NCBI GenBank assembly: GCA_016866935.1
Contig: VGKS01000006.1
Span: forward strand, 1-33,725
Direction of reading: 5' to 3'
From: Candidatus Pacearchaeota archaeon
GTDB taxonomy: Archaea; Nanobdellota; Nanobdellia; Pacearchaeales; GW2011-AR1
Length of the DNA stretch: 33,725 nucleotides
A model generated the notes under the pieces. It did not search any database, was not told the DNA's origin, and saw only the letters and a program-made list of their open reading frames with translations. How positions within the stretch are numbered: the stretch's first letter is position 1; each line of letters begins with the position of its first letter. Shown in pieces: positions 11,182 to 33,725 of the stretch. A program made the position numbers and the translations under genes.

Positions 11182-11257
11182 ACCAAACTGATAATTAAAT
11201 AGAATATAAACTTATCTCGAAAACCTTTTTATAGTCTTTGATATGTATATTATAAAG

Positions 11258-15656: not shown

Positions 15657-15720
15657 AAAAGGAATAATCAAGCAAGCTATATAAATTAGCTTAACCCCCA
15701 CAGAAATCACACAAACATCC

Positions 15721-15902
15721 TACGCCCAAACCAGGAATACTTTAACTCTTTAGAGTTTAAGTTGCCGATAACCTCAGTTAGCGAGCACTTCGATTCCTGC
15801 CCTACGCCCAAACCAGGAATACTTTAACTCTTTAGAGTTTAAGTTGCCGATAACCTCAGTTAGCGAGCACTTCGATTCCTGCCCTACGCCCAAACCAGGA
15901 AT
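15721..15902. repeat. 82-base tandem repeat (two perfect copies plus 18 bases) ending in the tRNA-Ser 3' end
   Basis: Copies at 15721-15802 and 15803-15884 are identical base for base; the 18 bases at 15885-15902 begin a third copy and are at the same time the 3' end of tRNA-Ser. Each copy holds the 16-base tRNA 3' terminus (CGCCCAAACCAGGAAT, plus strand). Each copy also holds an inverted piece of the T-loop/T-stem (TTCGATTCCTG at 15789-15799 and 15871-15881), which pairs over 11 bp with CAGGAATCGAA of the tRNA at 15896-15906. Inside each unit AACTCT/AGAGTT forms a hairpin (15739-15762 in copy 1) and CAGGAAT/ATTCCTG can close the unit. The period of 82 equals the length of the tRNA gene. Confidence 0.95.
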
Positions 15903-15968
15903 CGAACCTGGATATCCTTTCGGAAATGCGAGTTCCAGTCGCATGCAATTCCACTATGCGATTTGGGC
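15887..15968 (-). tRNA. tRNA-Ser (anticodon GGA)
   Basis: Reads UCC/UCU codons. The 82-base gene has acceptor GCCCAAA (15968-15962) pairing with TTTGGGC (15894-15888), discriminator G at 15887, D-stem GCA/TGC with GG in the loop, and anticodon stem TGCGA/TCGCA. The loop CTGGAAC puts GGA at 34-36. The long variable arm TTTCC-GAAA-GGATA is typical of tRNA-Ser, and the T-arm is CCAGG-TTCGATT-CCTGG. CCA is not encoded and there is no intron. Its 3' end is copied twice immediately downstream. Confidence 0.95.
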
Positions 15969-16208
15969 ATTTCAAACTCCGCAGTGAGAAGGTCCGCAAC
16001 AAAGTGAGGAACCTCGCAACAAGAGAGATTGAAATAATCTATCTTAATTTCATAATAAAGATGTCTTTTAAAGATTACCAGTCATACAACAAGAACAATT
16101 ATCTCTTCTTCATATTGTATTTTACAAAAACATATTTAACACCAGAAATTCTTTTCTTTTTTCATCAAGTGCAAAAAGAATATTTATTATTTATATACAA
16201 ATATATAA
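15969..16208. other. 240-base AT-rich gap with no convincing gene
   Basis: This lies between tRNA-Ser and the NUDIX gene. Only a short open frame with poor coding character runs through it. Two degenerate copies of GTTGCG...TCTCACT or CCTCACT (minus strand, about 15977-16018) sit just upstream of the tRNA; the tRNA promoter, if separate, is not obvious. Confidence 0.5.
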
Positions 16209-29229: not shown

Positions 29230-32200
29230 TTAATAAACCTGTTGGCTTTGATTAGAATCTTCTGATCTATTGAATGCATTATTTAGGTTTTCACTTCTTT
29301 TAGATAGCTCATCAAATCTTCTATTTACATTGATTAATCTTACAATTTTTAAAGAGATTATTATCATAGAACCAATTATTGAAAGTAGAATAATCCAGAA
29401 TATGGCTCTAAATCCTTGCCTTTCATCTATTGATCCAGTTTCACTTCCATTTTGAGAAATTGTTCCCTGAGTGGCATCCGCTTCAAGTTCAATATTATCT
29501 TGAGCATTTAGACACCCAGTGTCTGCAGGATAATCTACTAGCCCATCACCATCATTATCTAAATTATCCTTACATTGAGGTATTATCGTATTTCTAGGAG
29601 GAATAAATCCTGTAGAACCACTTCCAGAACCGCTAGATCCAGAATTAGTTGTTCCAGTATTTGGAGATTCTCTTGTGCTATATTCACTAAATCCTACAAC
29701 ATCAACAACCAAAGTTCCAGTATTCGAGTTATAAGAAACTACCGAGCAGACAGAAGAGAGACAATCAACAAAACCATTCCCTTCATTCATCGTAACTATA
29801 GGGGTTTGAGCATAATTTAATCCATAAAATGTTATTCTGGCAGTTTGGTCTAATTCAGGATAACCTGTAGTATTAACTTTTATTCTGTTTTGAGATATCT
29901 CGATCGCATCATTCAAGTCAAGACCATCAAACGACTGAGTTCTTATATTAAACCTTAGAAGCCTCAGTTCTTGATTTAAGTATTCTATTCTCCCAATTCC
30001 ACTAACTCCAACAGATAAGTCTTTATGTCTAAATAAATCATTAGATTGAGCAAGATTGCTCGTAATCACGGGAGAGAATTCTGTTGTAGATGGAACAGAA
30101 CAGCCATCTGAATTTACATTATCTCCCGAAGCAGTGTTAGGGCAAACATCAAACATACCATTTATTCCATCTCCATCAAGGTCTCCATTTATCTCAAGTT
30201 CATACAAAACAAATTTTCTTGCAGGAATAGTAATAGTTTGTTGGAAATTATTATTGACCGTTCTAATATATTCTCTTCCATTTTCTTTAGAGTATTTGAA
30301 TAAATTATAGTTCTGACCAGGAGTTAGTCCGTATCTATTGAAATCAAGTGTAAATTCTACAGTTTGAGTAGGTTCTCTTGCATAAGTGTTGATAAACATC
30401 AAGCCATATTTTTGGCCCCAACTATTTCCAACCAAGGCCTGTCTAACACTATTTATTACTCTAGGGAACTTTGTTGATACAGCTCCTCCCTCTTTAGAAC
30501 CAATAAATAATATCCAATCTGAAATATAATAATACTCTTCTTCCGGAGAGTTTAGTTGCATTGGCAAATGCCATAATCCATGGAAGTAATTTCTTGCAAG
30601 TTGTCTTGCATTTACTTCTTCCTTAATCAGTTTAGCATATTCTTCTAAAGGTGCTACCCAATAATCAAATGTTCCAGATGGATAGTATTGGCTTTCAGGA
30701 GGAACTTCTGATAACCTATAATTAGGAGTGTAATTAGAAGTATTTCCAATACCTACTTCAACATAATAAGGTATCGCAGATTTATCCAAGAAACCTACCC
30801 ATCCAGGTAACAAGTAAGTCTCAACCATTGTTTTATCATAATTTTGAGGAACACCAGGTATTGCCTTAAGAACAGGCATAAAACTATCCGGGATATGTAC
30901 CAATGCTATCTTATTAGGGTCAGCAATTTCATTAGAGAGTAAAAAGTCTATATACCCACCATAAACTCTTTGAAAGAGCTGAGTTCTTAGACCATTTTTA
31001 TAATTAGTTCCAGCAAGTCCGGTTTGAGGTATTGTAGTGGCCCCAGCTGCAGGTTGAAATGGAAAAAGATCTTCATCTGCAGTAAGTTGAGCAGTACCCT
31101 CGTGGAAAGTATATACTTCAGGATCTATTTTCCTTAGTTCTTCTACTTCTTTCCTAAAAAATTCTCTAATGGAAGTAAATTGTTTATCATCATGTCCCCT
31201 ATAACCATATTTTATAGATCTAGGTCCAGCATCAGTCCAGCCTGATGCAGTGAATATGCCGTCGCTGTAAAAACATCTAGTACCCTCCATGTTATTATTC
31301 ATTACTCTATATTTGTCTAAAAACCATTTTAAGTAGCTATTATCGTTAGGCCCTAGGCCAACAGATCCGGGAGCTAAATTTGCAAAACTATTAGAGTTAA
31401 GAGGAGCTCCAGGAGGAATTATCGAAGGGGCTCCCGATGGATCGAATTCAAGTAACTCTCCATCAGCAATCATGCCTGGTAAGGAAGGTTCATCTCCTCT
31501 AACATAGAATCCAGCGTTAAGAGTGTAAAAGCAAGGGTTCCATCCTGCAAGGTTTATAGCTCGATAAAAAGGGAAACTTATTCCAGGTATAGGTACAAAT
31601 TTCCCATAACCTTGAGTATCATCCTGGTCTCCACCCCATACAAGAATAGTTGATTCTTCTGCGCCATAGAATTTTCTAGATTCTTCGTAAAGATTTGCTA
31701 TTTCATCAATTTTAGGGTCGGAGCTATATTGACGGACCCCTCCTACATATTCGAAAAATTCTCCTCCTAAATTAGCCGAGGTGGTAACATCAAGATATTT
31801 TGCATTTTCAGAAATATTTCTTAATTTAAAAGGAGTTCTAATCATTCCCTTACTTTGCTGTATCTCCTTAAATTTATCTGCTATATTTACCCAAGTTTCA
31901 TCTCCAGTAAATGTGGTACCCTTACCAACTCCTATTCTAAAGGCGTAAGGCATTTTGTAATTAAAGTTACCATAGTCAAAATCATCTGGAAAAAAGACCC
32001 ACGCAGAATTTTTGAATGCTCCTTCCTCTCCTTGATAACTGTATCCTTTAGCATAAGTAAAGTTATCCAGAGCAAGGCCGTAAATATAATCTCCATTTTG
32101 ATTCCAATAACCCATCCAGAAGTCTATCCAAGAAGCATCATTTGTTCTAATTCCTTCTCCATCAATTCCCATTTCAGAAAAACTCGAAACAAACCCCTGT

Positions 32201-33725
32201 CCTTGAACTCCGCATGGAATTTGGCCTTCAGTTAATGGCTGGTAAAAACCAGGGCACAAATTTCTAGAACCTCTCGTCAATACATTATATCCTGGGTTTC
32301 TAACAGTTTCATGAACCCTATCAACCATTATTGCACTTTCATTAACAGAAGGGTCATCTAAAATAGTCTGATAAAGCAATACAGTTTTTATGCTATAATT
32401 CAAAACCTGAACATTATTCATAGAAAAATTCATCTCAAAATGAGGGCTATCTTGTTCCAAAAAGTATTTCTGAACAAAATCAAATTGGTTATTTGAGTCT
32501 ATCTGGCATCCGGGCCAAGTTACACTTAATACTTGAAAATTAAGCTGATCCTGTATAGAAAATTGAACATTATTGCAGTTTCCTTTAAAGGGATTAAATA
32601 AATCTTGATCATCACTATATATGGGATTATCCAAAGGATTATCTCTAATCAACTGACTTGTGGAGTTGACCTTTCTAAGAATCATTCTCCAAGGAAACAC
32701 ATTTGCAACATTATAGGAATATCCGGTATCTTTATTTTCTATTATTTTGATGTTTCCACTATCTCCGTCAAAAGTGATTTTTATTCTATTGTTTTCAAGT
32801 GTTACATCTGGTCGAATAGTACTTTTAACTTCAAAATAAAGTTTGTTTGATTTTAATCTCTTATAATTATAGAACATATTTGGATATCTTGGCGGATTAT
32901 CAAAATATATTTTATGAGGTCCTATGCTGTAATCCTCGGCACTCAAAGTTATTTTGAAATTTCCAGTTTGAGTTTCAGATAAAATATAACTACTTGGGTC
33001 AACATAAAGATCATCAATATATAATTTAGAATTAGACTCAAAGAAATTATTTCCAAAAACTTCTATATCATCTCCGGGACGAACTATGGAATCTTTTATA
33101 TGTATTAAGTCAGGGTACTTAATAGTTGTTTCATTTATATTGAATGTATTTGATCTTGTATTGCCCTCGTTATCTATTCTTACCTGTTTTCCGACTAACA
33201 TTTCTTCCTTAGTCAGATAAATTTCTATTTTTTTATCATCTCTCGATAGGACTCTTGATGTCAAATCAACACCATCTAAAATTACTTTTGAGTTAGGGTC
33301 GAAATTGTTACCCCACACTTTTACTGGAGAAACTCCTAAATTCAAAGGATTTTGCAAGTTTATAGGAGTTACCTGCACAATAGAAGGGCTAGGAGGAGGA
33401 ACCCCAGATCTTATCTCAAAAGGGTGAGGGTTACTTTCAACGCTTCCTTCAACAAATGAAATGTTTGCAATCGCTTCTGGAATTCCTGCAGGAAAAATCA
33501 GTCTAACTTCCTCACCACTTATGAAATTTATAGTATAAATGACGGATCAAGTATAAAACTAGAGCCTCCAACGATAACCTTGAGTTGCATATTTTGCGAA
33601 AAACCGCTCCCTATCACAATAGATTCACTTACCTGAGAATTATATATTATAAAAGGAGTTATCTCATTTATTATAATCCCTGAATCTGGTTGTAGTAAGA
33701 CTCTTTTATCAATAAATAAAAAAGT
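29230..33725 (-). CDS. giant surface protein, copy B (1382+ aa; one-base frameshift near its N terminus, N-terminal end off the right edge)
   Basis: From GTG 33378 the frame is 1382 codons. By comparison with copy A the protein should start beyond 33725, and codons upstream of 33536 continue in the matching frame (KRVLLQP... to SFILDPS), but copy B lacks one T after its TCATTTA. Order: IPT/TIG-like modules, a beta domain from about residue 190, a large globular middle (about 480-1010) of TIM-barrel look with SDGIF and EVYTFHEGT that may be a glycoside-hydrolase relative, a DLDGDGINGMFDVCPN Ca-binding segment (about 1065), a Ser/Gly linker, CKDNLDNDGDGLVDYP (about 1275), then a membrane helix near 1325-1350 and a short polar tail. 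Likely anchored and displayed outside. The enzyme idea is weak. Confidence 0.85.

Follow-up and report, generated by a model that had tools for sequence, protein, structure and literature searches.

A probable miniature mobile element with a double-hairpin core, in tandem behind a tRNA-Ser gene of a Candidatus Pacearchaeota archaeon

The array that follows the tRNA-Ser(GGA) gene in our window, that is, in the whole 33,725-nt stretch of DNA that was analysed, is in our judgement likely to be two tandem copies of a miniature, non-autonomous mobile element whose moving part is a double-hairpin core of about 50 nt. This reading draws on the dispersal of the core, on the host-specific sequences that flank it, on its paired structure, on its precise insertions when compared with empty sites and on the tandem doubling of the unit. 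The core belongs to a family of double hairpins that is scattered through the Pacearchaeota family of the window and hardly occurs outside it. Its insertions are precise and often lie at a hairpin loop's edge; they hit DNA that encodes structured RNAs and, in some cases, other sites. The copies that survive at tRNA genes sit in a duplicated T-arm and 3' end, and the tRNA therefore stays intact.

The tRNA-Ser(GGA) gene lies on the minus strand at 15887-15968 (detected by ARAGORN and, with 54.4 bits, as Rfam RF00005), is 82 nt long by Rfam and, according to both programs, is intact and complete without splicing; its 3' flank runs leftwards on the window. Downstream of the gene, in the direction of the tRNA, come TAGG and then two units of 82 bp, at 15801-15882 and 15719-15800, which are 100% identical (2.2 copies with 100% match in TRF), their number being that given by the metagenome assembly. 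Each unit is made of three pieces, all on the minus strand: an inverted copy of the host T-arm, a 50-nt double-hairpin core and the tRNA 3' end, copied in direct orientation. The direct copies form a 20-nt repeat family (D2; minus-strand sequence ATTCCTGGTTTGGGCGTAGG) with three members at 82-nt spacing. The first, at 15883-15902, comprises the last 16 nt of the tRNA and the 4-nt trailer and is the source of the other two, which close unit 1 (15801-15820) and unit 2 (15719-15738, the outer end of the array). The inverted pieces occupy 15871-15882 in unit 1 (GCAGGAATCGAA) and 15789-15800 in unit 2. After one G, a unit starts with CAGGAATCGAA, the exact reverse complement of tRNA residues 54-64 (TTCGATTCCTG, 15896-15906), the last 11 nt of GCAGGAATCGAA being the reverse complement of the T-loop and the 3' strand of the T-stem. 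The cores lie at 15821-15870 (hairpin hp1 in 15843-15870, hp2 at 15821-15844) and at 15739-15788, and each scores 64.9 bits with our covariance model R1 (E 3.8e-14 for unit 1, E-values of this model being rough), a score to be read in the knowledge that the window's own unit is one of the 22 sequences used to build R1.

The coordinates in the initial annotation all hold, and so do its two identical 82-base units ending in the 3' bases of the tRNA, the 11-bp inverted repeat with the tRNA and the ability of each unit to close on itself through its ends (CAGGAAT/ATTCCTG). An internal hairpin is present as well, although there are two per unit and not one. The match between the period of the array and the length of the tRNA, which had been singled out as a feature, is coincidental and was discarded as a rule, because sister arrays have periods of 81, 83, 87, 89, 92 and 121 nt.

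Relatives of the unit are found elsewhere in the same genome (G000; 0.69 Mb in 43 contigs). The same element lies behind tRNA-Phe, flanked by the 20-nt 3' end of that tRNA (ATTCCCTCTCCGCCCATTAA), and a longer relative follows tRNA-Ile in the opposite orientation and in two copies, with tRNA-Ile's own 3' end. Another genome of the genus, G002, contains many more elements, placed behind Gln (two genes), Leu, Ser, Phe and other tRNAs, and copies of the tRNA 3' end occur there at 16 of the 26 distinct tRNA genes examined. Across four genomes, the tRNA's own last 14 nt are copied downstream in 31 of the 122 tRNAs with enough flank, compared with 0-1 for control probes taken from other tRNAs. Empty tRNAs mostly have plain trailers without a core; in most genomes a minority of the tRNAs is occupied, and occupancy is patchy between species of one genus. 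Perfect two-copy arrays are also present in other contigs and genomes, some arrays combine two different units (Ser-GCT and Gln-UUG in G002), and the number of units differs between two tRNA-Gln copies within one genome.

A covariance search of related genomes, which had been proposed together with the initial annotation, placed R1 matches in 38 of the 181 genomes of the window's GTDB family. When genomes were drawn class-wide, 18 of 378 were positive, 17 of them from this family and one, with a weak match, from another family of the order. Named records with the core in a pattern scan of genomes were Ca. Pacearchaeota or Nanoarchaeota, and the three bacterial matches in that scan are about the number expected by chance. 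No Rfam family matches the core. A viral origin was considered and rejected, the pattern scan of IMG/VR having given no match on viral contigs. Weak, low-scoring core matches near a 23S (L138) and a 16S rRNA gene (L204) carry no weight in our conclusions. A 23S rRNA gene of G002 (L216, 1-717) is interrupted close to its 3' end by about 400 nt of inserted sequence, possibly an intron.

A tRNA 3' end lies less than 400 nt upstream of at least 91 of the 133 core matches and within 150 nt of at least 84, these counts being lower bounds given that ARAGORN missed intron-containing tRNAs before some seemingly orphan matches; for about a third of the core matches the program found no tRNA nearby. Where a tRNA was found within 400 nt, a copy of its 3' end follows the core in 81 of 91 matches, and many of the copied ends are degenerate. 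Two layouts occur. In type A (38 matches), the layout seen in the window, the trailer is followed by the inverted T-arm, the core and a terminal part of the tRNA that begins at about residue 58 (sometimes 53). Type B (53 matches) consists of the trailer, the inverted T-arm, the direct 5' half of the T-arm (..GGTTCRANT), the inverted core and a terminal part of the tRNA beginning at residue 61/62. The element behind tRNA-Phe is of type A in G000 and of type B in G002. Direct copies at tRNAs measure about 17-20 nt, and the inverted repeats that flank the core are locus-specific: over 74 units, the summed longest match of the inverted T-arm with its own tRNA was 614, the maximum of 1000 permutations being 472. 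The inverted T-arm adapts at residue 57 and its neighbours, outside the direct repeat, and was therefore copied from, or corrected against, the tRNA itself.

Several loci depart from these layouts or resemble them with other sequences. Four cores (L102, L167, L116 and L153) are enclosed by tRNA T-arm and acceptor sequence without an intact tRNA close by, and are perhaps orphan units that moved or were left behind after loss of the tRNA. Four more (L098, L104, L193 and L200, in G151, G144 and G068) have longer common flanks (TATGAAACCWAG ... TTTTCCTAACANGTCACCTTCC), one of them in a tRNA intron, and may be an enlarged form of the element or an RNA in its own right. Unrelated small hairpins with a similar anatomy occur at Arg, Met and Gly tRNAs in G001 and at Lys in G000. 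In G001 a further hairpin, GACTCATAGAACTT(hairpin)AAGTTGTAT or similar, is present near the 3' ends of tRNA-Arg, Met, Thr and Gly (L045, L083, L021, L049), and at three of these loci the tRNA 3' end has been copied; the sequence is different, the site is the same and the layout is similar.

Cores outside tRNA 3' ends allow insertions to be compared with empty sites. The Rfam scan located one core within the RNase P RNA gene of G053 and another in a tRNA of G068, where it occupies an intron-like stretch, and the window's own genome has a core at 11196-11246 within its RNase P RNA (G000:C5:11020-11354). In an alignment of seven RNase P RNAs, from which the empty sites were read, about 51 nt (the inverted core) separate AAGAATT from TAATGAATT in the P3 loop of G053, and G000 and G002 read AAGAATT directly followed by TTTATGAATT. 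The core of G000 stands after ATGAAAC, a position at which nothing is inserted in G001 (same genus), G055, G221 and G053 and at which G002 and G222 have other double hairpins. In the DNA polymerase B (PolB) of G139, a 51-nt core appears as 17 extra in-frame residues (GEN-PHKSKISGNSRIGNSEV-FKKV), and 12 sister species read GEN directly followed by FKKV, or close variants of this. No target duplication was seen at these empty sites, neither at the two in RNase P RNA nor at that in PolB. Given such clean insertions, the mobile unit is therefore the double hairpin of about 50 nt, and the duplicated tRNA end and inverted T-arm are a feature of tRNA sites; the evidence from empty sites comes from RNase P RNA and PolB. 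As for the surroundings of the core, a stem of at least 6 bp is flush with its 3' end in 8 of 40 non-tRNA matches, compared with 1% when flanks are swapped, and in type A this holds for 17 of 33, compared with 10%. Stems flush with the core are not in excess in type B, and no obvious hairpin surrounds the PolB insertion or several other loci.

The paired structure of the core was assessed with R1, built from an alignment of 22 cores (A1). Over 103 distinct R1 matches, 92.3% of the pair cells are paired, and 302 pair cells have changed on both sides compared with 14 on one side, counts that are inflated by related sequences and come from an alignment (A2) fitted to the model. Neither the observed percentage paired nor the covariation score was reached in any of 500 shuffles, and the pairing is lost when the partner is shifted by 1-3 columns. 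In hp1 a bulged T, a bulged A and a mismatch are conserved, and the ends of the core (GTGC...AAGT) are not the inverse of each other. G-U pairs account for 1.1% of the core's pair cells, compared with 4.3% in the T and acceptor stems of tRNAs from the same genomes. This near absence of wobble intermediates fits better with arms that are kept complementary at the DNA level than with an RNA gene; gene conversion between the arms could be another source of the very low G-U content.

Covarying hairpin arms, an inverted T-arm that complements the host's T-arm and a stable minus-strand fold of the tRNA together with the array (z -5.0) are also what one might expect if the units were structured RNAs in the tRNA 3' trailer, with a processing or regulatory role and selected for pairing with the T-arm. 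We consider this unlikely. A low fold z-score is expected anyway for a tRNA accompanied by inverted repeats, most tRNAs have no core and their occupancy is patchy even within a genus, the core is found in both orientations as well as inside RNase P RNA and PolB, and its changes are nearly purely Watson-Crick, with few G-U pairs. The same observations count against the suggestion in the initial annotation that the units are processed small RNAs.

Another reading sees in the units the remains of site-specific integration, by a casposon, by a CRISPR-like process or at a tyrosine-integrase att site, the tRNA 3' end being the duplicated target. The direct repeats of about 20 bp of the tRNA 3' end that flank the element would agree with it, as would the two different units in the Ser-GCT array of G002, which look as if they had been added successively. 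We nevertheless give it little credence, since the core carries each host's own tRNA end and no fixed attP, the RNase P and PolB sites have no target duplication, and Cas1 was found in only one of 13 carrier genomes tested. A reverse transcriptase (PF00078) was not found in G000, G002, G043 and other carriers, and a Y1 transposase (PF01797) was not found in the element-rich drafts G000, G002, G040, G043, G064 and G070, all carrier genomes being incomplete drafts in which single absences are weak and the overall pattern is consistent. Cas1, reverse transcriptase and Y1 transposase do not co-occur with the elements and were rejected as required partners, and the searches turned up no enzyme that would mobilise the core. 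The search for integrase genes that had been proposed earlier recovered one widespread tyrosine recombinase and no other: an XerA-like gene, which 24 of 26 genomes have irrespective of whether elements are present. In two genera xerA is close to tRNA-Leu(UAA) (L159, L082), and both tRNAs carry an element. The closeness of xerA to elements in G055 and G064 thus reflects a linkage of xerA with tRNA-Leu(UAA) common to both. Of the three options put forward in the initial annotation, a small integrating element comes closest, the core being dispersed and inserted, though hardly at a classical att site: the flanking repeats are each host tRNA's own and the non-tRNA insertions lack target duplications.

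The perfect identity and tandem layout of the units could also suggest a purely local duplication, by slippage and template switching at the T-arm palindrome and with no mobile element, and the combination of inverted and direct T-arm copies does resemble template switching. We regard this as very improbable: it is already contradicted by homologues of the core at many unrelated loci and genomes, and cores fill empty sites in non-tRNA genes. Local duplication is the likely source of the unit's doubling, and in this respect the slippage considered in the initial annotation can account for a second copy of an existing unit, though not for the unit's origin. That the array is an assembly artefact is barely conceivable, in spite of the metagenome assembly and of some core matches at contig ends, as the same anatomy recurs in many independently assembled genomes, including internal positions of long contigs.

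As a mechanism for the mobile double-hairpin element, we propose that the core moves as folded single-stranded DNA. Its insertion at T-arm palindromes would go together with fold-back template switching, a step that we infer from the anatomy: the switch would copy the T-arm inverted and then re-enter it, thereby producing the duplicated tRNA 3' end. Slippage or unequal exchange between the 20-bp repeats would later double the unit and leave the copies perfectly identical. Fold-back template switching would explain why most tRNA insertions have an inverted T-arm and a duplicated 3' end, and also why unrelated small hairpins at the same place have a similar anatomy. Alternatively, the inverted T-arm may have become host-adapted by later correction of an imperfect palindrome. 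More tentatively, and with the doubts appropriate to so broad a claim, the element might represent a new mode of mobility, in which a folded single-stranded double hairpin enters T-arm hairpins by fold-back template switching, any tRNA is open to colonisation and keeps its function, and diverse hairpins take the same route with the help of a host enzyme.

Several known systems share features with the element. REP/REPIN sequences are small imperfect hairpins with conserved bulges, occur in many copies and are associated with RAYT (Y1) transposases. The core is likewise a small, imperfect and multicopy structure with conserved bulges; it differs by its layout at tRNAs and by the fact that no Y1 transposase was found in the six element-rich draft genomes. 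Casposons insert at the 3' ends of tRNA genes and duplicate the tRNA end. Our element has the same site and a duplicated end, but Cas1 was not found in 12 of the 13 carriers tested, there is no coding capacity and the inverted T-arm is host-specific. Compared by eye, the element shows no match at its ends to the integron attC boxes RYYYAAC/GTTRRRY. Mitochondrial repetitive hairpin elements (RHE) and fungal double hairpin elements (DHE) are short, often double hairpins with complementary changes in their arms; they are found in intergenic stretches, within rRNA genes and, rarely, within protein genes (PMC2800124). The core resembles them as a short double hairpin with compensatory changes that inserts in structured RNA genes, here RNase P RNA and a tRNA intron. 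Unlike these mitochondrial elements it is archaeal (Ca. Pacearchaeota / Nanoarchaeota) and, as far as known, unrelated; its usual place is the 3' end of a tRNA, where it comes with an inverted T-arm and the tRNA end duplicated, and it also occurs in RNase P RNA. The Rickettsia palindromic elements (RPE) are stem-loops of 105-146 bp with terminal inverted repeats of about 12 bp that occur in frame in protein genes and also in RNase P RNA (M1) and tmRNA genes (PMC2229807). The core is similarly in frame in the PolB of G139 and present in RNase P RNA, but it has about 50 nt, two hairpins and no terminal inverted repeats of its own. Small archaeal repeats, including some in protein genes, are credited to Suyama et al. 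2005 as cited in PMC2229807. With archaeal MITEs and palindromic repeats the core has in common that it is a small archaeal repeat also present in a protein gene; unlike MITEs, which have fixed terminal inverted repeats and target duplications, it has neither at the non-tRNA empty sites.

Because it fails the defining features of RPE, RHE, MITE, REPIN and casposon alike, the element is not filed under any of them but as a new variant among small mobile palindromic elements. The open-access literature yielded no description of a tRNA-linked repeat in DPANN archaea, and as far as that literature was searched the layout at tRNA T-arms is undescribed. The statement in the initial annotation that no family has such a layout accordingly stands for the tRNA layout. 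The unit itself is not unique and has relatives in its own and many other genomes. Tiny mobile hairpins without known enzymes are already familiar from Rickettsia and mitochondria; the present one would add to them a large family from DPANN archaea that is phylogenetically bounded and has a distinctive layout linked to tRNAs. Since the inverted T-arm adapts to every host tRNA, it would record the mechanism of insertion, and the question of how such elements move becomes testable by sequence comparison. The element furthermore affects the annotation of tRNAs and RNA genes, touching 16 of 26 tRNAs in one genome, the RNase P RNA and a DNA polymerase.

Other observations concern the rest of the window. 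Just 5' of the tRNA, at 15966-16034, lies a member of a second small inverted-repeat family, TTTCAAaCTCCGCAG...GCAACAAGAGAGATTGAAA. The 3' array of tRNA-Lys(CTT) in this genome contains a relative (G000:C2:37601-37664), and in G002 and G055 there are similar cores whose terminal inverted repeats are specific to the locus. Near the two ends of the window, the plus-strand ORFs 289-669 and 31855-32235 are closely similar, and the latter is antisense to a surface-type protein of 1382 aa, which points to two putative paralogous large surface genes 31 kb apart.
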